Positions 778-22,541 of a stretch of 22,541 bases of DNA are shown piece after piece. This DNA comes from a virus. The stretch is taken from positions 1 to 22,541 of the IMG/VR virus record IMGVR_UViG_3300008448_000721. One strand, 5' to 3'. The notes below the pieces were generated by a model. That model searched no databases and had not been told where the DNA came from. It was given only the letters and a program-made list of their open reading frames with translations. Within the stretch, counting starts at the first letter, position 1. Every line of letters starts with the position of its first letter. Made by a program: the position numbers and the translations under genes.

Positions 778-806
778 ATTTGTATCCTCTATAGTTAGAT
801 TATACT

Positions 807-814
807 ATAAATAG
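807..814 (-). promoter_or_regulatory. Candidate late promoter element CTATTTAT (site 1)
   Basis: The coding strand reads GTATCTATTTATAGTATAAT in the 55-base gap between the tube gene and the second tube-like gene, 29 nt before the latter's ATG. The 13-base stretch AGTATCTATTTAT is shared exactly with the site before the sheath gene. A TATAAT follows two bases later. The promoter role is inferred from recurrence and position. Confidence 0.5.
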
Positions 815-5728: not shown

Positions 5729-5736
5729 TTAAATAG
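5729..5736 (-). promoter_or_regulatory. Candidate late promoter element, variant CTATTTAA (site 3)
   Basis: The coding strand reads AAACTATTTAATTTCAC, one mismatch from CTATTTAT. It lies between the gp23 terminator and the gp13 ATG, 18 nt before that ATG. Because the terminator should stop upstream transcription, a promoter is needed about here, which supports the weaker match. Confidence 0.45.
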
Positions 5737-5748
5737 TTTACAGATAAT

Positions 5749-5800: not shown

Positions 5801-7681
5801 CTAACCAAGTAGATCTTGAACGATAACTAGACCGTACATGTCTGGACGGACCATCGCTTTACCGTAACGTGTCATTACGGCTTTGCGTGGTGTGAAATCG
5901 TCTGGATCAAAGATTGTTGGTGAGGTTTGTAGTGGAACATAAGGTGAGTAGACATAGCCGCTTTCGAGGAAGCTGCCGCCCTTACGACCAACGAGGATTA
6001 CGTTACGTGGGAAGTAAGGATCTACAATTACGTCAAACTTGCTGTTTAGCGCACCAACTTTAACTGCACCGATGCTACCCTTTTCTGCATCGTGGGTAAC
6101 GGTTGCACGGAACCCAGCGGTGAATTCAAGGATGTTTGCAACTTCTGGTGAGAGAACAACGTAGTTAGCGCCACCGCGTAGTGTCTTACGGTGGATGAGG
6201 GCTGAAACGTCATTGATTGTTTCAATGAGTGTTTCGTACCACATGCTAACGTTACCGGTAAAATCAGGTGGATTTGTACCGTTAGAAGCATCAGCACCTG
6301 TGTTGCGATTTACGAACTTACCGGGACGGCGCGACCAGTATTTAACACCAGCGGTACCGCCCTTGATTAGATCGTTAAGAATTTCTTGATCAATTTCAAG
6401 ACCGATTTGTTCGCTGAGGATGCTGGTTAATTCAACTTCGGCGTCAAGGTTGTGATAAGCGTTTAGATCTTGGCCGAGTTCTGGAGTCCAGCTGGCCTTG
6501 AGCTTACGTGAACGCGCAGTGATGCTGAAGCTGTCTACCTTTAGTTTAATTTCTGGTAGTGTATCGCTTGCTTCAAGAGCAAATGGTGATGCACCTTTGA
6601 GAGCACCGAGAGCGCTGTCGCCAGCTACTGAAATTTGATCCTTGATTGGGAAACCAAGAACAACGGTTGTACTTGCACCGAGTGAAGTTGCTAGCGATGA
6701 AGTGTTAACAGTTAATGAACCGCTTGGATCTGAAGAATGCTTGAATACAATTTCAAGGTACTTAACACCATCGGCGTCGGTTGTTGCATTAGAACCTTCG
6801 CCTTGAACGATACGAGTTAGACGACGAACTAGCGAACCGCTAACACCTGATGGTGATGCACTTAGATCGCCATTAGATGGGCTTGAAGCTGCGGTAACAG
6901 TTTGTGTGTTTGGTGAAGTTAGGCTAAAACCAGTTGTAGTACCTGAAATAATTGATAGTGATGTTAGATCTTGTTCTGCAATTAATTTAAAAGCAGCACC
7001 ATGCGTGGTAAGACCTTGTAGTGTTGATAAGGGAGCACGGTAAACTGAAACTTTACCACTTGTTTCGGCAGCAAGGTCTGGGTCAAAGCGAACTTTTTTA
7101 GCGCTGTCGCTGCTTGATAATTCGGTGCAAGCTAATGGAGCAAGAAACAGAGTGAAGCTTGAAGCAGCAACTTCTGCACTTGCACGCGCAGTACCATAAC
7201 CGCTGGTTAGTGAGAAGAAGCCTTTTTCAGCGTGAGCATTACCATCTACGCGAACACCACCGGTAATTTCAACACCGAGACGATCACCGTAAAGTGAATC
7301 GTTTGTTGAAATAACAACATCTCCGCTAGGACCGAGTTGTGTGCCATACTTAAAGTCCATGAAGAATACAAGACCGCTTGGTAGGCTCATTGGTTGTACG
7401 CTGACGAGGTCGTTAGCGATTAGACCAGCGAATACACGACGAACGATTGGGAATGCAACTGCGGCAAAACCCTGTACGTCGCCGCTGCTCATTGTGTTAG
7501 CTTCGCGGAGTAGTTCTTTAGCTTGGTTCTCTAGGAGAACTGCCATTGTACCACGTTGGTAATCGTCTTCGATACCTTCGAGTAGACCTGAATTTTCCCA
7601 CTTGCTCACTAGCGCTGCGCTTTCTTTCTTTTTGTCTTGGAAGACGGTGCCTTCCGTAAGACGTTCTAATACGTTTGCCAT
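5801..7681 (-). CDS. 23: Major capsid protein (gp23-like)
   Basis: A 626-aa protein with HK97-type T4 major capsid features. A propeptide-like N-terminus leads into VRRVFAGLIANDLVSVQPMS (about 80-99; T4 VRRAIPNLIAFDICGVQPMN). The core block SRKLKASWTPELGQDLNAYH (391-410) matches T4 SRQLKAAYSIELAQDLRAVH. The C-terminus has SGYVYSPYVPLQ and a TRYGKAMVRPDMYG-type ending. It is about 100 residues longer than T4 gp23, owing to a Ser/Thr-rich beta insertion near 120-375. LLRE at 57-60 fits the T4 protease rule (Leu or Ile, any residue, Glu), suggesting cleavage after E60 and a mature chain starting ANTMSSG. A strong AGGAG site precedes the ATG, and a hairpin sits just before that. Confidence 0.95.
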   Translation of the reverse strand: MANVLERLTEGTVFQDKKKESAALVSKWENSGLLEGIEDDYQRGTMAVLLENQAKELLREANTMSSGDVQGFAAVAFPIVRRVFAGLIANDLVSVQPMSLPSGLVFFMDFKYGTQLGPSGDVVISTNDSLYGDRLGVEITGGVRVDGNAHAEKGFFSLTSGYGTARASAEVAASSFTLFLAPLACTELSSSDSAKKVRFDPDLAAETSGKVSVYRAPLSTLQGLTTHGAAFKLIAEQDLTSLSIISGTTTGFSLTSPNTQTVTAASSPSNGDLSASPSGVSGSLVRRLTRIVQGEGSNATTDADGVKYLEIVFKHSSDPSGSLTVNTSSLATSLGASTTVVLGFPIKDQISVAGDSALGALKGASPFALEASDTLPEIKLKVDSFSITARSRKLKASWTPELGQDLNAYHNLDAEVELTSILSEQIGLEIDQEILNDLIKGGTAGVKYWSRRPGKFVNRNTGADASNGTNPPDFTGNVSMWYETLIETINDVSALIHRKTLRGGANYVVLSPEVANILEFTAGFRATVTHDAEKGSIGAVKVGALNSKFDVIVDPYFPRNVILVGRKGGSFLESGYVYSPYVPLQTSPTIFDPDDFTPRKAVMTRYGKAMVRPDMYGLVIVQDLLG

Positions 7682-7709: not shown

Positions 7710-8879
7710 TTATTTTTTAATTCCTGCTAAAAGTTTCCAGCGATCCATAGTTGGATCAACTTGGGTTTGTTTTCTTGGTAAGAATGGGCTTGGACCCTTG
7801 TTTAGCGCTTCAGTTAACGATTGTGGAGCGGGGCGCTTTTCGCTTACGCTCGCCGTTGACTTTAGAAGAGCGCTATAAATAGTTTTAGCTTCTTCTACCG
7901 ATGACGCATGGGAGATTGATTCGGCAATTTGGTTCTTTTGTCGCTCATTCAAGGAGGAATCACCCAACGTCTTATTTGTATATAGTAGCCTTGCGTTCAA
8001 AAGGTTGCTTTCATTAACTTTTTCTGTTAAGTATTCTACACCTTCTTTTAATTGAACATTCAGTTCTAATGATTTTTTAAGTTTAGCTTTTGTTTCACTA
8101 AGTTTAGCAATGGCAGCATCTAGTGCTTCTTCTAACTCGTTTTTTTCTTCTTCTTTCTTTTCAACTGTTGCTAAAAGATCTTCTTTTTGTGCCTCAAGTG
8201 CTGCTGCAATTCTTTTTTGTTTATTAAGTTCAATTTCGCTATTGTCAGGATCACGAACATTACTCATGTCCATCATGATTTCTTCATCAAGAGTAAACTC
8301 TTGCTCTTTTAGTGTTCCACCCGAGATCTTAGAACTTCCAGCAGACATTGAAACACCCGAAGCCTTCTCTTCATCCTTCTTCGCTTGTTCTGAGGCTTTT
8401 ACATCTGCTTGAGCGCCTTTGTTTCTAAGAGTAGCAGCTTCTACATCTTTTCTGGTAGCTTCTGCTCTTTGCTTATCGCCTTCTTCTGAAGCTTCTTCAA
8501 GTGGGTTTTCTTCAACTTGCATTGTATCGTTTGGAACAACTTGCATTTCTTCTTCAAGTTGTGTTACTTTTTCAACAAGTGAATTTAAATCAATTTCAAT
8601 TTCTTGAAGATCGCCTTCGCTTAAATAAGCAGGTTGAATGCTATCCATGACTTTTTTAAAAGCAGTTTGTTTTTGCTCACCTGTTGTTGGAGTTGCTGCG
8701 GCAGTAGCATCGCCACCTCCTAGATCACCTAATCCAGTTTCGTCTTGTTCAAGAAGTGCTTCAACGCTTTGTTTAATTTCTTCTGAGTATTGTTCTAAAA
8801 TTTGTGCTTCGGCATTTTTGCGAGCTGTTTCTTTTAACATTTTCGCATCTGCAATAGCTTGTTCAAGCAATGAAGACAT
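7710..8879 (-). CDS. 22: Prohead core scaffold protein (gp22-like)
   Basis: A 389-aa, strongly charged, coiled-coil protein directly before the capsid gene, as gp22 is in T4. It should form the internal scaffolding core around which the shell assembles and then be degraded by the gp21 protease. The most recognisable part is the C-terminal third: LNARLLYTNKTLGDSSLNER (near 297-316), then an IAESISHASSVEEAKTIYSA helix, a pattern typical of gp22 homologues in distant T4-like phages. Residues about 220-295 are a Glu/Lys heptad-like coiled coil. Many Leu-x-Glu sites (such as LLEQ and LEEE) suit protease destruction. A GAGG site precedes the ATG, and a promoter-like element lies 32 nt upstream. A CTATTTAT also lies inside the gene at 7875-7882, about 190 nt before gp23. 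Confidence 0.88.
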   Translation of the reverse strand: MSSLLEQAIADAKMLKETARKNAEAQILEQYSEEIKQSVEALLEQDETGLGDLGGGDATAAATPTTGEQKQTAFKKVMDSIQPAYLSEGDLQEIEIDLNSLVEKVTQLEEEMQVVPNDTMQVEENPLEEASEEGDKQRAEATRKDVEAATLRNKGAQADVKASEQAKKDEEKASGVSMSAGSSKISGGTLKEQEFTLDEEIMMDMSNVRDPDNSEIELNKQKRIAAALEAQKEDLLATVEKKEEEKNELEEALDAAIAKLSETKAKLKKSLELNVQLKEGVEYLTEKVNESNLLNARLLYTNKTLGDSSLNERQKNQIAESISHASSVEEAKTIYSALLKSTASVSEKRPAPQSLTEALNKGPSPFLPRKQTQVDPTMDRWKLLAGIKK

Positions 8880-8911: not shown

Positions 8912-8919
8912 ATAAATAG
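8912..8919 (-). promoter_or_regulatory. Candidate late promoter element CTATTTAT (site 4)
   Basis: The coding strand reads AGCACTATTTATTTACAAAG in the 67-base gap between the fibre-like gene and gp22, 32 nt before the gp22 ATG. It fits the recurring motif at the other gene-start gaps. The role is inferred. Confidence 0.5.
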
Positions 8920-8946
8920 TGCTAAATATTCTTAAAAGAACAAAAA

Positions 8947-10572: not shown

Positions 10573-10983
10573 CTATTTCTTCTTTCCGGCAACTAGTGCC
10601 TTCCATGTGGCTTTATTGCCACCAATTAGTGAACTAACATCAAGACCGGGATCGCTTGGGTCAACATCTTTTAGTGGACCACGACGCTCGGCTCCATTTG
10701 CTGCTTGCGCTTCCGTAAGCGGTTGCGTACCAGCAAAAGGGTCAAAACCGGTTGGTTTTGGCATTAACTTTGATTTTTGAATACTTTGTTCTAGCAGCTT
10801 GCGCTTGCCATCTGCTTCTTGAGCAGAGCCTTGTTTTAGCTGTTGAATAACTTTTGGAGCTGGTTTCGCTACTGGTTTTTTACTTTCGCTTAATGTTTGT
10901 AGCAAGCCTTCTTCTACCAATATTTCTCGTAGTGATTCTTTTAATATTTCTTTTATCACTGCTCTAAAATTATCAGCATCCAT
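10573..10983 (-). CDS. Unknown protein in head operon, amphipathic N-terminus
   Basis: A 136-aa protein I do not recognise. The N-terminus (FRAVIKEILKESLREILVEE, residues 6-25) is an acidic/basic amphipathic helix of the same general type as the shared tag found on several other proteins here, but without its MKITKS start. The rest is Lys/Pro-rich and low in predicted fold, ending in a basic GKKK. The start overlaps the previous stop as TAATG, and the bS21-like ATG follows one base after its stop, so all three are probably co-translated. A role as a minor capsid, core or internal head protein is plausible from position only. Confidence 0.7.
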   Translation of the reverse strand: MDADNFRAVIKEILKESLREILVEEGLLQTLSESKKPVAKPAPKVIQQLKQGSAQEADGKRKLLEQSIQKSKLMPKPTGFDPFAGTQPLTEAQAANGAERRGPLKDVDPSDPGLDVSSLIGGNKATWKALVAGKKK

Positions 10984-11414: not shown

Positions 11415-12008
11415 CTATAAAATTTTAGTTAAAATGTTATTTAATTTATCAATTCGCTGTTTTGATTCAGCGAGTGCGCGATGCTCTTTCATCATAAATG
11501 CGCCGGGAGTGCTTGGTTCGCTGACCATATCAAAACAAATAAGTTGAAAATCATCATCAACAATTGTTACGCCACCACTTTGGCGTGTTGAGCCTAATCC
11601 GCGAGAGCTAATACCAAGCTTAACACCACTTTCCACAAGCGTTTGAAGAATCTTACCGCTTGGCGTAGGTAGAACTTTAATTTTAGCCATAACAGCACTA
11701 CCATCCCACCACGTTTTAACAACCATGTGCGAAACATTTTTAAGATTTATGACCGAACTATCTGGGTGGTCAAGTTCGCCAAGAGCACGATTTTGCCCAA
11801 TGAGATCTTGATATTTTTCAATCTCACGCCTTAGAATTTTTTCACCATATTTACGGCCATTGCCATTTTTAACATCTGCTTCTTGAATTTTGCCACTAAG
11901 AATAAGACCACCTTCAGAAACGTACTTTTTTTCCGCTTCTGTTAGCAGATCTTGACAAATGCCACCGGGGCAAAGTTCAAAAAATTCTCTTAATAATTCT
12001 TGTGCCAT
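11415..12008 (-). CDS. 21: Prohead core protease (gp21-like)
   Basis: A 197-aa serine protease of the T4 prohead type, with the herpesvirus-assemblin-like fold known for this family. It matures the prohead by cutting scaffold, capsid propeptide and internal proteins after Glu. Visible active-site segments are GELDHPDSS with His81, GISSRGLGS with Ser134 or Ser135 as nucleophile, and the FDMVSEPSTPGAF segment from 159 that follows the core in relatives. The start of the fold, GLILSGKIQEADVKNGNGRKY (split around 35-54), is also typical. It is close in size to T4 gp21 (212 aa). It lies downstream of the tagged small genes and upstream of 22 and 23, the relative order of T4. Confidence 0.95.
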   Translation of the reverse strand: MAQELLREFFELCPGGICQDLLTEAEKKYVSEGGLILSGKIQEADVKNGNGRKYGEKILRREIEKYQDLIGQNRALGELDHPDSSVINLKNVSHMVVKTWWDGSAVMAKIKVLPTPSGKILQTLVESGVKLGISSRGLGSTRQSGGVTIVDDDFQLICFDMVSEPSTPGAFMMKEHRALAESKQRIDKLNNILTKIL

Positions 12009-12119: not shown

Positions 12120-12548
12120 TTATTTTTCCCTTCCGCTATAATCCATAATTTGTTCGCAAAGATCAGCATCGTTGCGAACGTTTGTAGGTGTACTATCGTG
12201 CCAAATTACCATGCCGTTTTGAATGTAAAAACCAAACTCGCCAACTGGTTGCACAACGCCGGATGTTAGCTCATCGTTATTAAACGCAAGGCGATAAACA
12301 TTTTTGCCTTGTGTCACATAAACTTCGCCACCTTCGATGTGCGTTTCTACATTGCCTGTTTCATAAGGCGGGCGAGTGCCCATTGGTTCTTTGTTGTTAT
12401 TGTTTGGCGCAACACCATTACGATAATTTTGAATATATTCACTACCAAGCGTAGGCGAAAAAACCTTGCTTGGCTGTGTGTTTCTCATGGGATTAGCAAT
12501 TTCTTCCATGATAAGTTGTTTAATAATAGCTTTGTTTATTTTTTTCAT
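12120..12548 (-). CDS. Tagged probable internal head protein, 142 aa
   Basis: I set the start at the ATG at 12548. A longer frame would need a TTG and would overlap the previous gene. The N-terminus MKKINKAIIKQLIMEEI is a variant of the shared tag, with a LIME step where the T4-type protease could cut. The remainder (about 18-142) is Asn/Gly-rich, with beta-like segments VETHIEGGEVYVTQGKNVYR and GEFGFYIQNGMVIWHD, and matches no family I know. It is the last complete gene before gp21. By analogy with T4 core and internal proteins, it may be packed in the prohead core and trimmed. The ribosome site is poor, suggesting coupling to the previous stop eight bases away. Confidence 0.7.
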   Translation of the reverse strand: MKKINKAIIKQLIMEEIANPMRNTQPSKVFSPTLGSEYIQNYRNGVAPNNNNKEPMGTRPPYETGNVETHIEGGEVYVTQGKNVYRLAFNNDELTSGVVQPVGEFGFYIQNGMVIWHDSTPTNVRNDADLCEQIMDYSGREK

Positions 12549-12555
12549 GTTAATA

Positions 12556-12777
12556 TTATGCCAAACTTTCAACTTCTCTTGAAATTGCGCCTAATTCTTG
12601 ACGTAGCTGTGGACCAACATAATTAGAAAGATTTCTTATTCGCATAGCTAATTCAATAGCTTTATCTTTTTTAGCTTGTAAAGGAGCAACAGATGACTGA
12701 TCATCTACAACTTCTTCAAGGTTTTGCTCTAACTCTTCTTTAATTAATTGTTTTAGAACTGATTTTGTAATCTTCAT
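12556..12777 (-). CDS. Tagged small probable core protein, 73 aa
   Basis: A 73-aa protein beginning with the clearest form of the shared tag, MKITKSVLKQLIKEELEQN. The rest is helical and acidic/basic (a KAIELAMRIRNLSNYV helix, then a LRQELGAISREVESLA helix). Its small size, charge and place between gp20 and gp21 recall the T4 core proteins gp67 and gp68, but I see no sequence match. LIKE at 11-14 fits the Leu/Ile-x-Glu cleavage rule. The ATG is preceded by a GAGG site and a CTATTTAT element 23 nt upstream, so a transcript probably starts here for the protease and following genes. Confidence 0.78.
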   Translation of the reverse strand: MKITKSVLKQLIKEELEQNLEEVVDDQSSVAPLQAKKDKAIELAMRIRNLSNYVGPQLRQELGAISREVESLA

Positions 12778-12800
12778 TATTCTACCTCGTACATTATAAC

Positions 12801-12808
12801 ATAAATAG
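12801..12808 (-). promoter_or_regulatory. Candidate late promoter element CTATTTAT (site 5)
   Basis: The coding strand reads TTTACTATTTATGTTATAAT in the 38-base gap before the 73-aa gene, 23 nt upstream of its ATG. As at site 1, TATAAT follows two bases after the motif. A GAGG ribosome site comes next. The role is inferred. Confidence 0.5.
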
Positions 12809-12815
12809 TAAATTG

Positions 12816-13082
12816 TTATTGTTTTTTCACTTTTATTATAATTCCGTCATCATCTACAAGGCGGCTAATGAAGTACGACATCCCAGAGCTAATACACGCG
12901 CTAACAAACCAATTAAAAGGCAGGCTAAAGAAACAAAGCGACATAGCCGCGCCAACCCACCAGCCCATGCACATAGGACATTTAAAAAAATGATGTTGCG
13001 GTCTTATGGCATCAAAAATTTTACCATAAACCGCAATCATCGTGCAGCCATAGCAAGCAAGAATAAAGCTTACTAATTCCAT
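12816..13082 (-). CDS. Small membrane protein with CPMC motif
   Basis: An 88-aa protein with hydrophobic stretches near 3-18, 41-54 and 56-72, a CPMCMGWWVG motif (35-44) and a charged tail DDDGIIIKVKKQ. The Cys-Pro-x-Cys followed by an aromatic-rich membrane segment resembles small phage and bacterial membrane proteins of the DUF1360 sort (Cys-x-x-Cys-x-Gly-Phe/Trp-Trp-Val). That comparison is from memory. It is unusual between head-core genes. It overlaps the preceding stop as TAATG and should therefore be co-translated with the tagged proteins. The function is unknown; a membrane anchor for head assembly or a superinfection or lysis factor are options. Confidence 0.8.
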   Translation of the reverse strand: MELVSFILACYGCTMIAVYGKIFDAIRPQHHFFKCPMCMGWWVGAAMSLCFFSLPFNWFVSACISSGMSYFISRLVDDDGIIIKVKKQ

Positions 13083-13597
13083 TATTTATTCTTTCTTTCT
13101 GCTAGAGCCTGTGCATAATTATAATGACCGGTTCTACGGCTTTTAAACGCTCGCCCCATTATGTCTTTTTTAAGAGTTTCTAATGCGCTTTGCGCATTAC
13201 CAATCGCATCATAGAAAGGTTTTACGCTAATTGAACCACCGCCTCTATATCTTAGCGGGCCAGCAGCGGCACGTAATGCTTCAACGCCATCAGTTTCAAT
13301 TTCTAATAGTTGCTGAGATAATTCTGCTATCGTATCCATTGCGGCAGCGCGTGCTTCTTCTTTAGAAGCGCTTAATTCATCTGCTTGCTCTGCTTCTGCC
13401 TCTGCGGCTGCTGCTGCTTCTTGATTAGCCAGTTCGCCAGATGTTAAACCAGCCATTCTAGCGGCACCGCCAACAAATTTTTTACCTAAACTGCCAACCT
13501 TGTCGCTAAACCAACCTTCTTCAATTTCACCTTCTGCAATCATTTTTTTAATTTCTTCACTAATGATTGCTTTTACTTGCGATTCACTAATAATCAT
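13082..13597 (-). CDS. Tagged probable internal head protein, 171 aa
   Basis: A 171-aa protein starting MIISESQVKAIISEEIKKM, a divergent form of the shared tag with an IISE cleavage-like step. EEGWF (26-30) follows, where the next-upstream gene product has EEGFF. A long Ala/Glu-rich helix (about 56-85) leads to a basic C-terminus ending YNYAQALAERKNK. Both ends resemble the 141-aa protein encoded just upstream, so the two look like divergent tandem duplicates with different middles. It starts directly after that gene's stop (TAAATG). I recognise no known family. Packaging into the head core is inferred from the tag and the position between gp20 and gp21. Confidence 0.75.
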   Translation of the reverse strand: MIISESQVKAIISEEIKKMIAEGEIEEGWFSDKVGSLGKKFVGGAARMAGLTSGELANQEAAAAAEAEAEQADELSASKEEARAAAMDTIAELSQQLLEIETDGVEALRAAAGPLRYRGGGSISVKPFYDAIGNAQSALETLKKDIMGRAFKSRRTGHYNYAQALAERKNK

Positions 13598-14023
13598 TTA
13601 TTTTCTCCACTTGTTTTTATTATTTTCTCTAAGCGCTACAGCTTTTGCGGCTTGCACGTCATAACTACCCTGTTCATCGCCACCCTTGGGACCAACAAGC
13701 ATCATTGCTTGCATAATTCTACTTTGCAATGCGCCATCGCCTTTTACTTGTTTAGCTAAATCAGAAAGTTTAGCACGCTTTTGTTCTGTTGACATGTTAG
13801 AAGCTATTACATCAAATGCAGCAGCCGCGATTGTTCTATCACCCATTGGTTTGCCATAACCTTCACCGGGAAACATATCCATTTGAACCATTTCTGGTTC
13901 TGGTTCTGGCGGTGGTGGTGATTTTGGTTTACTGCGAAACATATCAAAAAAGCCCTCTTCCACAGCTTCTTTTTCTAGTTCCTCTTTAATAATTTGTTTT
14001 AAAAAACTTTTTGTAATCTTCAT
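13598..14023 (-). CDS. Tagged probable internal head protein, 141 aa
   Basis: A 141-aa protein with the tag MKITKSFLKQIIKEELEKE at the start and an IIKE cleavage-like step. EEGFFDMF follows (22-29), then a Pro/Glu-rich linker (PPPPEPEPE, about 36-44), then helices (RTIAAAAFDVIASNM, then EQKRAKLSDLAKQVK) and a basic end. The C-terminal YDVQAAKAVALRENNKNK resembles the end of the 171-aa neighbour, supporting duplication. At the DNA level the first 30 or so bases are nearly the same as those of the 73-aa gene. The ATG has a GGAG site. I recognise no family; it is probably an internal or core protein of the prohead. Confidence 0.75.
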   Translation of the reverse strand: MKITKSFLKQIIKEELEKEAVEEGFFDMFRSKPKSPPPPEPEPEMVQMDMFPGEGYGKPMGDRTIAAAAFDVIASNMSTEQKRAKLSDLAKQVKGDGALQSRIMQAMMLVGPKGGDEQGSYDVQAAKAVALRENNKNKWRK

Positions 14024-14038
14024 TATAAATATTCTCCA

Positions 14039-14596
14039 CTAATAATTGTAACGATAAATGCCACGGGTTGGGAAACCATATTTTGGAATTGAACCTTTGA
14101 ATTTTTCTTGAGGAATTTCACCAAGCTCGGTACTGTTTTCTTCTTCTGGCGCTAGAAGTTCACGCTCTAAATCATCAATAAATTTTTTACGAATGCTGTA
14201 CTCTTGCTTATCTTTGTTTATAAAATTAGCAAGGTTTAGCAGGACAACGTCTAGCGGTTCCTCTTCGCCTTTTTTTTCTATAGCAAATTTGGCTTCAAGC
14301 GAACCGTGAATGTTACCACCAATTACGCTATCAGGGGTAACTACGCCCTGAATAACTAAGTGATTAAAAAGCTGATCTTGATCGGTGTAGACATCGTTGC
14401 TAAATTCGCCTTTTGGCATAGCAATTATTTTGCCCTTATCGGGAATAATAACGACATTCATATTTTGATGACCGGTAATAAGAATGCTACCGTCTAGGGT
14501 TTTACCCATTTGCAACTTAATTTTTTTAAATTGTTTTTGTTTGGCAACTACTTGCAAATCATCGATGTTGTTTACTACTTTTAACTGTAATGGCAT
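14039..14596 (-). CDS. Unknown protein between portal and protease genes, 185 aa
   Basis: A 185-aa protein I do not recognise. Residues about 20-110 alternate strands and turns (KIKLQMGKTLDGSILITGH, a VVIIPDKGKIIAMP stretch, a VIQGVVTPDSVIGGNIHGSL stretch), suggesting a compact beta domain. It continues into a charged helix (EYSIRKKFIDDLERELL) and a Gly/Tyr-rich end (YGFPTRGIYRYNY). It has no signal peptide, TM segment or shared tag. It overlaps the 274-aa gene's stop as TAATG and is likely co-translated with it. Position in the block between gp20 and gp21 suggests a prohead core or assembly factor. Confidence 0.75.
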   Translation of the reverse strand: MPLQLKVVNNIDDLQVVAKQKQFKKIKLQMGKTLDGSILITGHQNMNVVIIPDKGKIIAMPKGEFSNDVYTDQDQLFNHLVIQGVVTPDSVIGGNIHGSLEAKFAIEKKGEEEPLDVVLLNLANFINKDKQEYSIRKKFIDDLERELLAPEEENSTELGEIPQEKFKGSIPKYGFPTRGIYRYNY

Positions 14597-15420
14597 TATT
14601 TTTGTACCTCAGAAACAAATTCTTGAATGTACATTATTTTCTTAATTAGTTCTTCGTTAATGTTGCTAACTTTTAAATTATTAAGAACTTTTTGTAGAGT
14701 TTTGGCATTTTGTAAAATTTCTGTATTGCCTTTTACTAATTCATTAGATAATGATTTAGAGACACTTTCTTTTAGCCTATCAATTTCTTCATTTAAATAA
14801 ACTTTTAATTCTACATCTTCTTCGGAATAATTTATAAATTTAGAAAGTAATTGCTTCTGCTCTGATAATAATTTATCACTATAGGTTTCATTGAAACGTT
14901 CAATAAAACGTTTAAGCGCTAGCGAATCAACGCGTTCTAAAATAACTTTTTTTTCTTTTGCTTCTGCTGTAATTGTTTCTAAAATTTCTTGTTCGAGCAA
15001 AATTTTTTGTTTTGGTTCAATGCTTTTGTTAAAAATTTGTGAAACAGAAGCTAAGGTTTTGTAATTTGGTACAAAATTATTAAAAACGTGTGGGCCAACA
15101 AATTTGTTAATTTTTGCAATTAGTTTACTTTGCTCATTAAAAATTTCTGTTTCGTTTAACTTTTCATGTTCAAGCTTAACTTGACTTAACAATTTTTCAG
15201 CTATGCCTTTAGGAAATTCTTTAGTAGCATAAAGTTGTTTATAAAGTGTTAGTTCCCTATCAAGCGGACCACCTTTTTTAAAATGCTCTTTGATAAGTAC
15301 AGAAATAGTTTTTTGTTTTGGTTTATCGCCTTCTACCGTTGCTTTTGTTAGTTCTTTAACAAGTGTTTCAAAAAGAAACGCAGTGTTGCGTTTTTTGTTA
15401 TGTTTAAATTTATTTTGCAT
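14596..15420 (-). CDS. Helical protein after the portal, possible core or assembly factor
   Basis: A 274-aa Lys/Glu-rich, almost fully helical protein. The N-terminus KHNKKRNTAFLFETLVKEL (6-24) is distinctive, and I believe similar proteins sit next to portal genes in other distant T4-like phages, though I cannot name the family. Helical blocks with heptad-like Leu spacing run through the rest (an LLEQEILETITAEAKEKKVI helix around 140-160 and long runs in 175-240). Its start overlaps the last 11 bases of the portal gene, implying translational coupling. A CTATTTAT lies inside the portal gene at 15528-15535, about 107 nt before this ATG. A scaffold or portal-associated core protein is a reasonable inference. 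Confidence 0.75.
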   Translation of the reverse strand: MQNKFKHNKKRNTAFLFETLVKELTKATVEGDKPKQKTISVLIKEHFKKGGPLDRELTLYKQLYATKEFPKGIAEKLLSQVKLEHEKLNETEIFNEQSKLIAKINKFVGPHVFNNFVPNYKTLASVSQIFNKSIEPKQKILLEQEILETITAEAKEKKVILERVDSLALKRFIERFNETYSDKLLSEQKQLLSKFINYSEEDVELKVYLNEEIDRLKESVSKSLSNELVKGNTEILQNAKTLQKVLNNLKVSNINEELIKKIMYIQEFVSEVQK

Positions 15421-17350
15421 TCTTTTTCTCCAAGCCCGCTAATAGAATTTTAATTTCTCTATTTGCTTCATGCAACTTACGTTCGTTTATATCTTCCTCT
15501 GGGCGTTCGCCTTCTAGATAAATAGTGTCCTCAAACAGGTTTGTTATGTTAGAAAATTGTTTATCATTTTTTAAAGTAGGGAAGAGGCTACGTTTATCGG
15601 TCCCCTGTTTGGAAAATTCACCTAAAGAGTGCCTTCTGCCTTTGACTTCCCTACGATCTGGTAAGCCGCGATCTTTCTTTTTTACATAATCATCCTTACG
15701 CTTGGCTGGTGGTGTGCCGCCTTCAACGTCAGGAACTACCAATAGACCCCCTTCTCCACCGCCTTCCGCCCCAGCTGCTTCGCTACCACCAGCTTCACCG
15801 CCAGCGGGAGGCGTTTCTCCGCCACCTGTTTCACCACCAAGACCGCCACCACCTTCCCCACCAAGACCAGCATCGGCTGCGCCAGTAGCTTCAGCACCAG
15901 CACCGGCTGCATTTGCACTACCCTCAAGTGACTTTTCATAAATTTTATCGTGATGAATTTCTCTTTGAATCTTTTTGTAGTCGTGATCAGAAAGCTTAAA
16001 GATGTTTTCGGCAATCCAGCGTTTACTGAAGAAACCTTCTTTTGCAGCACCAGCAATTTCAAACTTAGTTTTCCAGTGTTCGAGTTCTTGTAGCTCGCTA
16101 ATTTTTGAAGGGTTGTTTAATTCTAGTGAAAATTTAAGTAAATCTTCGTTGCGATAGCCAAGAGTAAAAAGATGAATAATTCCAATTTTTTCTAACTCGC
16201 TAATTATAACTTTTTGTAAACGTTGGATTGTGCGAGCAAAACGAATATCTTTTTGTGCTAGGGTGCTTTTATCTTCTTGTGTGCCTTCACCTTTAGAAAG
16301 ATAACTTTGTGGAATTTTTAAGGCGCTAAATAATTTATCGCGTAGATATTTCACGTCATCAATGTCACCAGTAAAATTCCCACCAGTAAGTGTGTCAATT
16401 TTTGTATTACTTTGTCCACGAACTGGAATGAAATAATCTTCATCAATGCTCATTGGGTTATAGCGAAGATCAACGCGGCCAGTGTTTGGATCAACAATCA
16501 TGTTACGCTTCATTTGATTTTGAATCTTTAGCATGAATTGCTCCATGTCTTCTGGAGCTATGTTTCCAACGTCGATATAAAATACACGACGGTCTGGAGC
16601 GCGAACGATGCGATAAGCCATCATAGCGTCTTCTAGCAGGTTTAGCTGACGCCAAATACGACGCGCTGGCTCAAGAACGCTTGTGCCGTAGGGCATGTAC
16701 TTATCTTGCCCACCAATGCGGAAGTGAGCAATTTGCCAATTTTCAAATGTAATACCGCCGCTATTCCATTGAAACTGCACGTAGTTTGGGTTTGTCTTAT
16801 CTTCGCCTTCAAGGCGTTCAATTTCTGGTGAAGGTAAGCCAATTACGCCTTTGACACCAAGCTGATCATCAAGATCAAGGTAAAGAAATAGATCGCCAAA
16901 CTTAATCATTGTTCGGCACCAACCAAAAAGGCTAAATTCAATATTTAGAACATCATAATAAAGCGTTTCAAGAATGCCTTTTATTTCTTGGTTAGGAGAT
17001 TTAACATGCAGCATCTTTGAAAGACCGCTGTAGGTGGTCATTTCATCTGCATAGATGTCCAACGCGCTTGCAATTTCAGGTGTAAATTCCATTTGATCAA
17101 AATCGCTATAACGCTCTGCACGAGTTTGATTAGCCATGATGTTGGCTTGAATTGCATCAAATGGGTTATAACTGGTCTTTTGGAATTGCTTACCGCTTGC
17201 GCTATTAAAATCAAATTTATTAAGCTGACGGCGCTTGAAACGCAGTTGTGCTTGCTGACGATAATTAATTAGCGGACCAGAGAAAAGTCGCGTTAAGCTT
17301 CTAAATAATTGTGAATCTTTATTTTTTATATTTTTTCGCTGATCTGCCAT
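15410..17350 (-). CDS. 20: Portal protein (gp20-like) with long Gly-rich tail
   Basis: A 646-aa protein that should form the dodecameric portal vertex, the prohead assembly start and DNA gateway. T4 gp20-type landmarks include an N-terminal YNPFDAIQANIMAN region, RYSDFDQMEFTPEIASALDI (80-99), SLFGWCRTMIKFGDLFLYLD (about 139-158), RRIWRQLNLLEDAMMAYRIV (near 231-250) and RAPDRRVFYIDVGN just after. A DKLFSALKIPQSYLSKGEGT segment follows further on. The core ends near 470, and T4 gp20 is 524 aa. The extra C-terminal part is a Gly/Ala/Glu low-complexity segment (about 476-546) followed by a basic then acidic tail. The gene starts four bases after the terminase stop, with GGGAT as ribosome site. 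Confidence 0.95.
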   Translation of the reverse strand: MADQRKNIKNKDSQLFRSLTRLFSGPLINYRQQAQLRFKRRQLNKFDFNSASGKQFQKTSYNPFDAIQANIMANQTRAERYSDFDQMEFTPEIASALDIYADEMTTYSGLSKMLHVKSPNQEIKGILETLYYDVLNIEFSLFGWCRTMIKFGDLFLYLDLDDQLGVKGVIGLPSPEIERLEGEDKTNPNYVQFQWNSGGITFENWQIAHFRIGGQDKYMPYGTSVLEPARRIWRQLNLLEDAMMAYRIVRAPDRRVFYIDVGNIAPEDMEQFMLKIQNQMKRNMIVDPNTGRVDLRYNPMSIDEDYFIPVRGQSNTKIDTLTGGNFTGDIDDVKYLRDKLFSALKIPQSYLSKGEGTQEDKSTLAQKDIRFARTIQRLQKVIISELEKIGIIHLFTLGYRNEDLLKFSLELNNPSKISELQELEHWKTKFEIAGAAKEGFFSKRWIAENIFKLSDHDYKKIQREIHHDKIYEKSLEGSANAAGAGAEATGAADAGLGGEGGGGLGGETGGGETPPAGGEAGGSEAAGAEGGGEGGLLVVPDVEGGTPPAKRKDDYVKKKDRGLPDRREVKGRRHSLGEFSKQGTDKRSLFPTLKNDKQFSNITNLFEDTIYLEGERPEEDINERKLHEANREIKILLAGLEKKNAK

Positions 17351-17353
17351 CTT

Positions 17354-18925
17354 TTATCCCTTAATTAACCACAAATAATCTTGGTACATTTTTTTAGTTG
17401 CAGTTTCTTGCACTTGCTTAAAGCTATTCATTCCGTTTATGCTAGTATTTAGTTGAGTGTTACTTTTACCCATAGTCGCTAGCAGCGCTTTTGTGTATTC
17501 TACATCTTTTTGATTGCCAATTAAAGCTGTGTCGCGCACCCAACATGCTATTGCAAGTGACATAACAAGATCGTCGTTATAGCCTTTTTGAGCTTCTGGA
17601 CGCCCATTAGACCAAATGAACTTTTCAAGTTCTCGCAGTGTTCGTGCTGAATTAATAATTAGTGATTTATTACGAATTAATTCATCAAGTTTAGCAATGA
17701 TGAGCGGACGTGTTTTAACTGATGTTGTAAAACCGGCTACAGCGCTGCTATTACCATAAGCTACGTTAGGCTCTATGTAATCATGATTTGTTTTAGACGA
17801 ATAATAGAGATTACGATAGCCATTACTAGCCAATTTTTGTGCTACCGTAAAACCAATGTTATTGTTTTCTACTACTAATAGCGCATGACCGTATTCTTTT
17901 CCAACCTGTTCTAACAAATTGACAAATTGATCTGGTTCCACTTTACCTTGGTACTCTGCAACTTGTTCCATAGTAGAAACATTAATAACATGAAAAACTG
18001 AATAGTCAGCACCATCGCCACGGGCAACGTCAGCGCATAAAATATACTTGCCTTGATGATTATAAGGTTTCCAAGTATGATAATTGCGGTCTACCCATGA
18101 TTTATGCTTTGGTTCGCTTACATTTTCACGAATCCGTTGCAGATCGTCTGGGTCTATTACGGTTTCGCCGCTTGCATTAAAAGAACAAAGATATTCTTGT
18201 GCTACTTCTCGCTTTGATAAGTTTTTAGTTTCATTGTTGAACCATTCTTTATCGTGGTCTGGGTGTACATCCCAAGGAAGATTCGTAGGGATAAATAGGT
18301 TTTGACCATTTTCCGCATCTTCGTATGTCTTGTGAAACCAGTTGCCTATGCCATTAGGTGATGAAAGCGCCACACAGCGACCACCAGTGGAAATAGTAGG
18401 ATAAAGCGCAGTCCAAATACTATCCATGTTATCAATGTGGGCAGCTTCGTCTACCACAAGAAGCGAAACAGCTTCGGAACGACCGGCATCCTCACTAGTA
18501 GCCACTGCTTTAATTTGTGAACCATTTGTCAACTCGAATGAATGCTTGTTATCTACTTTTACGGTAGCAATTTTAAGCCATTCTGGTACATTTCCAACAA
18601 TATATTTAACTTTTTTAACCATGTTGCTGGCTGTACTATACTTTGTAGCCATAACAAGCACGTTTTTTTCACGATAAAACAGTAATAACCAAGCAATATA
18701 GCCCGCACAGATGGTAGAGATACCAAGCTGGCGGGCTTTTACTATTACGTTAAAACGATGATCTCGGAATTTATCTAACAGGTCATCCTGAAAATTGTAG
18801 GTTTTGAAAGGGATCATCCCACGATCAGGATGTGAAATTTTAGCATAGTTCTTTAAAAAGTAAGATGGGTTCTTACCGCATTTAATAATTTCTTTCTTGA
18901 TCTCTTCGACGGTAAGTTCATCCAT
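17354..18925 (-). CDS. 17: Large terminase subunit (gp17-like)
   Basis: A 523-aa DNA-packaging motor with N-terminal ATPase and C-terminal RNase H-like nuclease. ATPase signs are the Walker A-like VKARQLGIST (62-71), Walker B LLVVDEA with D159 and E160, and the coupling motif SSPNG (188-192). The Walker A has Ile where T4 has Lys (RQLGKT). K63 at the start of the loop may supply the charge, as in other terminases with a shifted Lys. Nuclease residues are D299 in CADVARGDGADYS, E353 in VVENNNIG and D451/D452 in YNDDLVMSLA. The length is near T4 gp17 minus its extensions (610 aa). The portal gene follows at once, so packaging motor and portal are co-expressed. Confidence 0.97.
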   Translation of the reverse strand: MDELTVEEIKKEIIKCGKNPSYFLKNYAKISHPDRGMIPFKTYNFQDDLLDKFRDHRFNVIVKARQLGISTICAGYIAWLLLFYREKNVLVMATKYSTASNMVKKVKYIVGNVPEWLKIATVKVDNKHSFELTNGSQIKAVATSEDAGRSEAVSLLVVDEAAHIDNMDSIWTALYPTISTGGRCVALSSPNGIGNWFHKTYEDAENGQNLFIPTNLPWDVHPDHDKEWFNNETKNLSKREVAQEYLCSFNASGETVIDPDDLQRIRENVSEPKHKSWVDRNYHTWKPYNHQGKYILCADVARGDGADYSVFHVINVSTMEQVAEYQGKVEPDQFVNLLEQVGKEYGHALLVVENNNIGFTVAQKLASNGYRNLYYSSKTNHDYIEPNVAYGNSSAVAGFTTSVKTRPLIIAKLDELIRNKSLIINSARTLRELEKFIWSNGRPEAQKGYNDDLVMSLAIACWVRDTALIGNQKDVEYTKALLATMGKSNTQLNTSINGMNSFKQVQETATKKMYQDYLWLIKG

Positions 18926-21010: not shown

Positions 21011-21229
21011 TTATTTTCCTATGTACCTTGCAGCTTCTTCTGGGAATAGTTTTGCCATCATTTCAAAAGCCATTTTGGCTTCTGATTTAATGTCCATGTT
21101 GCGACCAACTCCAACAGCAGAAAGTTTTTCTAAGAAACTTAGGATGTAATCTGCTTCGTTAGAAGCACCAGCCATTTCTTCTAACTCTTCCTTAATTAAG
21201 TGTTTTAGTGCTTGTTTAGATAACTTCAT
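21011..21229 (-). CDS. Tagged small protein, 72 aa, outside the head-core block
   Basis: I chose the ATG at 21229 because AAAGGAG lies five bases upstream; a longer frame would overlap gp46. The N-terminus MKLSKQALKHLIKEELEEM matches the tag of the proteins between gp20 and gp21 almost residue for residue, with LIKE at the same place. The remainder (about 20-72) is two acidic/basic helices (ADYILSFLEKLSAVG, then EAKMAFEMMAKLFPEEA). It lies between the recombination ATPase and the holin-like gene, about 8 kb from the other tagged genes. If the tag is a capsid-targeting signal, this is a further internal head protein. I recognise no known family. Confidence 0.78.
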   Translation of the reverse strand: MKLSKQALKHLIKEELEEMAGASNEADYILSFLEKLSAVGVGRNMDIKSEAKMAFEMMAKLFPEEAARYIGK

Positions 21230-21239
21230 GTTAACTCCT

Positions 21240-22541
21240 TTATTGATGAACGTGGGCAAATGCGCCTTGGCGATCAATAATAATTTGTGAATCAACTGTG
21301 TCCTTGAGAGCATCAAGATGTGAAATAAGGAGTACAGTTTTAAAGCTACCTTTAATTAGTTCCAAGATCCGAATAAAACCAGCTAGATTATCGTTGTCAA
21401 GAGCAGTACCCGGCTCATCTAGAACAAAAACATCGCATTTTGGTAGCGAAGTCACGTTTAGAAATGCTAACCGAATAGCGATAGAGGCTAGCGATTTTTC
21501 TGCGCCGCTACCCATTTCTAGCGGACGAGCGTCGTATTTAGGGTGTTTAATCATAATATCTAGCTTGTCATCATCATTAACAAGAAAAACAGCAAAGTCA
21601 ACTACATTAGCAAGTAGTTTATTAATCTCCGAGTTGATAACTGGCAGCTTATTCTTGATAACTTGATAAGAGATACCGTTTGGGTGCATTGCTTTCAAGT
21701 ATAGATCATAAGCGGCGAATTCTTTACGCCTTTCTGCAAGTTCTAATTGTTGCTCTTCTAGATTTTCAAGAGTAGAAATCTGATAGCCGCTTTCCTTATA
21801 AAAGCCGGTAATTTTTTGCTGTAAAGAATTTAACTTCATCTCAAGATCACTAACTGCTTTTTTTAATTCTTTTTCACGATCAATTTTTTGTGATAGTTCA
21901 GAATTTTGCTCTGATTGCTTTTTTAGCTCTTCATAACGCTCGCGACACGCTTCGACTGTGTCACGCGCCGAGTTTTGCTTTGCAGTGGTTTTTTCTCGCT
22001 CTAATAGCAAATCTTTTTGTAGCAATAACAGTTTATTTAATAGCTCTTGATTGCTTTTGTAAACGCTTATGTTGTCTTCGACTACTTTATATTCCTCGAT
22101 AGCTTTTTCTAGATCGTTTTTTTCGTTTAGTAGTTGAACTAGCCGAACTTTACTATCCGGTAAACCAATCTTAGAATCAAAAGCATTTTTAATAAACTTG
22201 CATGATGGAAACGCATCACCGCATGGGACTTCGTCAAGAATCTTACTGTCTCGTTCAAGATCAAAAACACTTTTCTTAAGAAGGTTAAACTCGCTAAGTA
22301 GTTGTGTAAATTGATCGTTTTTTCCTTTTAATACTTCGCGTTTGGTTAACAGGGCGTTATAATCTATGTTTAGTTTTATAGATGTTTCTTTTTCTTTAAC
22401 ATCAAGCTCTGATAACTTTTTATCTAATTCCGTGATGCGTTTTGAGCAGCTATCGCTTATTGTTTGGTGCTGCACCATTGTTGCATAAACATCAGATAAG
22501 CTACCTTGTTCTTTTTTGATGTTGCGTAGGAACGAGGAAAC
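21240..22541 (-). CDS. 46: Recombination endonuclease subunit (gp46/SbcC/Rad50-like), partial
   Basis: The frame is open to the window edge (433 codons visible), so the N-terminal Walker A half is missing. Visible parts, counting from the first codon in the window, are a long coiled coil, a Cys pair PCGDAFPSCKFIK (107 and 114) at the hinge position, a second coiled coil, the ABC signature MGSGAEKSLA (343-352), Walker B DVFVLDEP (370-377) and the His-loop LLISHLD. With a gp47/SbcD-type nuclease this ATPase processes DNA ends in recombination-dependent replication. The hinge Cys residues are six apart, not the usual Cys-x-x-Cys. The gene ends just before an AAGGAG site for the 72-aa gene. Confidence 0.93.
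   Translation of the reverse strand, partial: VSSFLRNIKKEQGSLSDVYATMVQHQTISDSCSKRITELDKKLSELDVKEKETSIKLNIDYNALLTKREVLKGKNDQFTQLLSEFNLLKKSVFDLERDSKILDEVPCGDAFPSCKFIKNAFDSKIGLPDSKVRLVQLLNEKNDLEKAIEEYKVVEDNISVYKSNQELLNKLLLLQKDLLLEREKTTAKQNSARDTVEACRERYEELKKQSEQNSELSQKIDREKELKKAVSDLEMKLNSLQQKITGFYKESGYQISTLENLEEQQLELAERRKEFAAYDLYLKAMHPNGISYQVIKNKLPVINSEINKLLANVVDFAVFLVNDDDKLDIMIKHPKYDARPLEMGSGAEKSLASIAIRLAFLNVTSLPKCDVFVLDEPGTALDNDNLAGFIRILELIKGSFKTVLLISHLDALKDTVDSQIIIDRQGAFAHVHQ

Follow-up and report, generated by a model that had tools for sequence, protein, structure and literature searches.

Interchangeable N-terminal tags with a candidate prohead-protease site on unrelated proteins of T4-like phages

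It was found that many proteins of T4-like phages, unrelated in their bodies, begin with a short shared tag that ends in a candidate site for the prohead protease gp21. Five of these proteins are encoded in a stretch of 22,541 nt, the whole of which is called the window here. The tags are probably capsid-targeting sequences working like those of T4, with processing by gp21, and I put the probability of this reading at roughly 0.76. The original prediction, a capsid-targeting and processing signal, is favoured by the unrelated bodies, the association with gp21, the [LI]xE signature, and a tag copied from the scaffold, while the mostly acidic cargo speaks against it.

The window comes from a T4-superfamily phage, and nearly all of its genes lie on the minus strand (Table 1). 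PHROGs matches confirmed gp20, gp21, and gp23. The gene order is SbcC, a tagged gene, possible lysis genes, terminase, gp20, two conserved unknowns, four tagged genes with a small membrane-type protein among them, gp21, other head genes, the scaffold, gp23, and neck, sheath, and tube genes. Thus, as had been stated, four tagged genes lie between gp20 and gp21 and a gp21 homologue is encoded nearby, while the fifth sits between SbcC and terminase, away from gp21. All five N-termini read on the minus strand as first described, and all carry the shared tag, although the gene starting at 13597 has it only in a diverged form. A 16-residue profile trained on tagged proteins from other loci and contigs gave the five scores between 8.3 and 42.3; the 12548 gene was scored with a one-residue shift because its tag has one extra Lys. 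Among orthologues of the 12548 protein, the tag is kept at two loci (L426 and L427) and has the canonical form MKITKELLKKIIKEE at a third (L077). The bodies of the five window proteins are mutually unrelated.

The nearest cultured relatives of the window phage have a terminase identity of only about 42%. Across 20 tagged phages the head-gene order is kept, and the tags are found in the gp20-gp21 interval, in the gp21-scaffold interval, and 9-12 kb upstream. Directly after gp20, most tagged phages have a conserved unknown pair (14596-15420 and 14039-14596 in the window), which stands where T4 has genes 67 and 68. The small membrane-type protein (12816-13082) has a CPMCMGWW motif and weak matches to unnamed PHROGs only, and its place just before gp21 is kept in most tagged phages.

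Table 1. Features of the window and tags of phage immuto (scores are those of the 16-residue tag profile; a slash marks a predicted cut)
Feature	Positions	Strand	Details
SbcC	21240-22478		
Tagged cargo gene, 72 aa (21229 gene)	21011-21229	-	tag MKLSKQALKHLIKEEL at 21182-21229; score 29.6
Terminase	17354-18925		
gp20 portal, upstream border of tagged cluster	15410-17350	-	phrog_213, E=8.9e-74
Tagged cargo gene, 141 aa (14023 gene)	13598-14023	-	tag MKITKSFLKQIIKEEL at 13976-14023; score 42.3; second candidate site AVEE23/GFFDMF; predicted peptides after candidate cuts ELEKEAVEEGFFDMFR or GFFDMFR
Tagged cargo gene, 171 aa (13597 gene)	13082-13597	-	diverged tag MIISESQVKAIISEEI at 13550-13597; score 8.3; further candidate sites MIAE22/G and EIEE27/GWFSDK; predicted peptides after candidate cuts GEIEEGWFSDK or GWFSDK
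ACTATTTAT element, candidate late promoter	12801-12809	-	upstream of the 12777 gene
Tagged cargo gene, 73 aa (12777 gene)	12556-12777	-	tag MKITKSVLKQLIKEEL at 12730-12777; score 39.1; second candidate site NLEE22/V
Tagged cargo gene, 142 aa (12548 gene)	12120-12548	-	tag MKKINKAIIKQLIMEEI at 12498-12548; score 22.8
gp21-type prohead protease	11415-12008	-	phrog_207, E=1.8e-53
Conserved single-copy gene between gp21 and gp22	10573-10983	-	relatives start MKKSELKKVIKPLVKECIHEVLIEEG
gp22-slot scaffold	7710-8879	-	synteny and 15 homologues with LAG[IL] ends; conserved C-terminus DRWKLLAGIKK
gp23 major capsid protein	5801-7681	-	phrog_138, E=8e-72
Predicted gp23 propeptide boundary	~7502-7513 (P4-P1 codons)	-	QAKELLRE60/ANTM; alignment of 16 gp23
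ACTATTTA elements	12801-12809, 8912-8920, 5729-5737	-	
CTATTTATA variant of the element	806-814	-	
immuto35A_190			related tag MKKSQLRQIIKEALDAS
immuto35A_175			related tag MKKSELVKLIKEEL
immuto35A_3, _178, _194, _201			FDLKKFLVEN or HKWQAKFLKES tags
immuto35A_42, _187			RMQxLAGIITES tags

Is the tag common beyond the window? One degenerate pattern was scanned over 2.9 million viral contigs, and the matches listed are a lower bound. In uncultured relatives, the tag (tag 1) reads M-K-[IL]-T-K-x-x-L-K-x-[IL]-I-K-E-E. After removal of residues 1-24, the bodies of 326 tag-1 proteins fell into 243 families, 223 of which are singletons, among the matches listed. The largest number of tag-1 genes in one genome is 26, in a 289-kb phage, with 15 of them consecutive. 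One 8-kb stretch of this phage (L281:6333-14494) holds 17 tagged genes whose bodies are all different, including the unbroken row of 15. When the ORFs of 20 related head regions, the window, and two isolates were scored with the profile, 86 of 1,341 on the coding strand exceeded a score of 2, compared with 0 of 2,114 on the opposite strand. The tags also agree in strand with gp21, but this is discounted as weak support because the tagged genomes are largely unidirectional (86-92% by gene count).

The tag is restricted to phages. A scan of 84,980 prokaryote genomes found it in only four contigs, all metagenome-assembled, and gp21 is present in two of the four assemblies. Tagged stretches within metagenome-assembled genomes named Methylococcaceae (a 306-kb contig) and Halobacteriovorax (L304-L308) appear to be phage contigs placed in bacterial bins, since both assemblies have gp21. 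A tblastn search of the isolate collection with a 22-residue query found no tag, probably owing to masking and the shortness of the query, and DNA patterns and the profile were therefore used instead. Isolate homologues of one tag-1 body and one tag-2 body were not found by tblastn either. Pfam and PHROGs assigned almost no functions to the tag-1 bodies, and in these searches tag 1 did not appear chiefly on early cytoplasmic proteins, the distribution named beforehand as contrary to the prediction. The mean net charge of the tag-1 bodies is slightly negative, and 31% of them are net basic. A further idea, in which tag 1 would be a repeat within gp22 or gp23, was rejected, since in the head proteins of the window and 20 related regions the motif occurs at N-termini only.

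I found that where a homologue of a tagged body is without tag 1, it often begins with MKLLxENWRKYLxE (tag 2). Homologous bodies bear either tag 1 or tag 2; that is, the tags have been exchanged. Tag 2 is unrelated to tag 1 in sequence and has [hydrophobic][LI]xE in the same register, at residues 11-14. When tag 2 was picked on residues 1-11 alone, L/I at residue 12 and Glu at residue 14 were present in 90%, and the 130 complete bodies fell into 80 families, both among the matches listed. Pfam revealed kinases, NUDIX, GNAT, GDSL, exonuclease, nucleotidyltransferase, and HAD domains in tag-2 bodies. Some of these bodies resemble metabolic enzymes (NUDIX, nucleotidase), which counts against the capsid-targeting reading. 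In the loci fetched for tag 2, tag 1 was found 46 times on the same strand and never on the other strand. Several tag-2 proteins at three loci (L318, L405, and L410) show, by eye, an H-x-T 2H-phosphoesterase-like motif (WPHHMTINMGP); the 2H-phosphoesterase fold is that of known anti-CBASS nucleases.

A third tag, RMQxLAGI[IL]xE, occurs in T4-like phages more distant from the window. It was revealed that the gene immediately upstream of gp23 (the gp22 slot) encodes a protein whose very last residues are RMQxLAGI, with gp23 lying at most 900 bp from the RMQxLAGI-ending gene in 54 of the 55 cases with room. The same peptide is N-terminal on 45 other proteins belonging to 42 families, and there [IL]-x-Glu follows, with the unselected Glu present in 45 of 45 and P1' mostly Gly, Ser, or Asn. 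A capsid-targeting sequence would be expected to have just this form, a copied scaffold end supplied with a protease site. The cultured Flavobacterium phage immuto, whose scaffold C-terminus RMQxLAGI is identical to the tag of those 45 proteins, has FDLKKFLVEN-type, MKKS[QE]L-type, and RMQxLAGIITES tags. The window tags contain no LAGI. Conservation of the scaffold C-terminus, as W or RM..LAGI, reaches from the window clade to phages of Flavobacterium and Microcystis (L460-L579). As for tag 1, giant-phage versions of the 10573-10983 gene begin with M(A/P)K-KV[TK]RS-LK-[LI][IV]KECLVEILVEG, which is tag-1-like, and this gene may be the original of tag 1.

Alternatively, the tag may be a core-assembly helix, and the tagged proteins expendable scaffold parts that build the prohead core and are then degraded or expelled, with no delivered cargo. 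T4 gp67 and gp68 are expendable scaffold components of the prohead core. Lying between gp20 and gp21, the window genes fill the slot of gp67 and gp68, many tagged proteins are small and acidic like T4 gp67, and the conserved core gene at 10573-10983 has the tag-like N-terminus just described. However, up to 26 unrelated tagged proteins are found per genome, many of them distant from the head genes, and homologous bodies bear the enzyme-rich tag 2 instead. Scaffold parts should be conserved, yet 223 of the 243 families are singletons among the matches listed. This alternative is unlikely.

The capsid-targeting reading turns on the processing site. T4 gp21 cleaves after L/I-x-E (PMC9026906). Ile-x-Glu or a close form had been noticed at about residues 11-14 in the window, and this signature extends to tag 1 in general: N-termini picked on residues 1-9 alone have Ile12 in 98%, a variable residue 13, and Glu14 in 98%, although these positions were unselected, which suggests a protease site. 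The residue after Glu14 (P1') is Glu in about 90% of tag 1, unlike the small residues of T4. Within residues 17-30 behind tag 1, a second hydrophobic-hydrophobic-x-Glu was found in 33 of 68 cases in giant phages (3.1±1.7 when shuffled), at Glu22 or Glu27, and in 85 of 331 outside them (24±4 when shuffled), mostly at Glu22. It is most often followed by Gly, Ser, Ala, Asn, or Thr. Judging from these motifs, tag 1 may be cut at Glu22 or Glu27 rather than at Glu14; the exact bond is left undecided because of the P1' Glu at Glu14 and the position-specific second site.

The gp21 family profile had a single match in the PDB, the T4 prohead core protease 5jbl (E=5e-29), and His81 (GELDHP) and Ser135 (GISSRG) are invariant in 15 sequences. 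The N-terminus of the window gp21, MAQELLRE/FF, bears the same site signature as the tags. Most gp21 relatives have M..LLRE at residues 4-8, which parallels QLLIE9 of T4, where self-removal of the first nine residues by gp21 has been inferred (PMC9958956). In an alignment of 16 gp23 sequences, the tagged phages have a conserved [QE][LV]L[RK]E/[AS] where the T4 propeptide ends (SFLTE/AEIGG in T4 gp23), and a cut at LLRE is predicted for their gp23. The gp21 family is present in 33 of 50 tagged records compared with 5 of 30 random records (17/21 versus 4/17 at ≥50 kb; 13/13 versus 4/6 at ≥100 kb), and the sole tagged record among the controls, which has 15 tags in 267 kb, also has gp21. Large contigs of this kind are mostly T4-like, so the association is partly phylogenetic and is taken as supporting evidence only.

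Does the signature necessarily reflect cleavage? The tag might instead be a sorting or membrane-docking helix in the infected cell, keeping late proteins at the inner membrane or an assembly site, for example, with [LI]xE as a by-product of an amphipathic Lys/Glu helix. Tag 1 is amphipathic and rich in Lys and Glu, which by itself raises the chance of [LI]xE, and Glu would be an unusual P1' residue for the predicted cut at Glu14. However, two unrelated tags share the [hydrophobic][LI]xE end with an unselected Glu, one of these copies the scaffold C-terminus, and the second site that follows tag 1 is tied to particular positions, so that this explanation seems very improbable. The invariant residues of tag 1 use synonymous variants (Thr4 ACA/ACC/ACT/ACG; Leu8 CTT/TTA/CTA; Ile12 ATC/ATT), and therefore selection acts on the protein. 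Given this variation, and upstream DNA in which the ribosome-binding site is conserved and nothing beyond it, it is scarcely credible that the shared start reflects a conserved DNA element (a translation starter, recombination site, or mobile cassette border) and no protein signal, even though tagged genes form tandem runs of up to 15 in one giant phage.

A candidate late promoter, ACTATTTA, was also found in the head regions, and it is unlike TATAAATA of T4. Its coding to opposite strand ratio is 62:1 in the head regions of tagged phages (L261-L280) compared with 37:25 in random control loci, and it often lies 20-40 bases before a structural gene. The late promoter known from T4, TATAAATA, was rejected, with no coding-strand enrichment (16 versus 42 on the opposite strand).

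To return to capsid targeting, the T4 internal proteins IPI, IPII, and IPIII have the targeting sequence MKTYQEFIAE/A (Mullaney and Black 1996, as reviewed in PMC9026906). In both systems, a short N-terminal peptide with a hydrophobic-hydrophobic-x-Glu gp21 site at its end is common to unrelated proteins, the genes are near head and lysis genes, and the phage encodes gp21. T4 IPII and IPIII adjoin lysozyme e, and distal tag clusters neighbour endolysins. In contrast, the tags have 14-27 residues (10-19 in T4) and often two candidate sites, there are up to 26 tagged proteins per genome rather than three, and the bodies are mostly acidic rather than basic. The description of the tag as unlike that of T4 was borne out, since only Met-Lys and the terminal hydrophobic-Ile-x-Glu agree with IPII and IPIII. 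On account of its different sequence and non-basic cargo, the tag is filed as working like the T4 targeting sequence but outside its family. T4 Alt, an injected ADP-ribosyltransferase with a 7-residue gp21-cut propeptide, is a head-carried enzyme with a short N-terminal propeptide and thus a model for the tag-2 proteins with predicted enzyme domains. In the giant phages phiKZ and SPN3US, many ejected head proteins are processed by a gp21-like protease; there the substrates number only nine, with mostly long propeptides and an A-x-E motif (PMC10052503), whereas here a short common tag has [LI]xE. Read as targeting sequences, the tags are a new and far larger variant of T4-type capsid targeting; no earlier description of them, or of the tag strings, was found in the literature searched.

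It is proposed that the N-terminal tag helix would dock the tagged protein on the prohead core during head assembly, probably by copying a conserved core-protein segment, as the 10573-10983-type N-terminus and the scaffold C-terminus suggest. gp21 would then cut after [hydrophobic]-[LI]-x-E within or just behind the tag, at Glu14 or, if the second site is used, at Glu22 or Glu27. The cut would free the cargo inside the head, and injection with the DNA may follow. The chances that most of the cargo is delivered to the host are about even. The full proposal could equally go either way: a few interchangeable labels, copied from the phage's own prohead-core segments and joined to a protease site, would load hundreds of unrelated proteins into the head for host delivery, including kinases and NUDIX, GNAT, 2H-phosphoesterase, and nucleotidyltransferase enzymes.

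To my knowledge, there are very few phages whose proteins carried into the host have been identified, because internal proteins have only the tag in common and homology cannot find them. In uncultured T4-like phages, most of them marine, the tags can be recognised, and an N-terminal tag search would list the candidate injected proteins of each genome (anti-restriction, anti-defence, and host takeover). For the question of how targeting sequences find the prohead core, the copied scaffold C-terminus suggests a concrete answer. If the proposal is true, the tag would be a sequence handle for finding a large number of injected phage effectors that have yet to be described.
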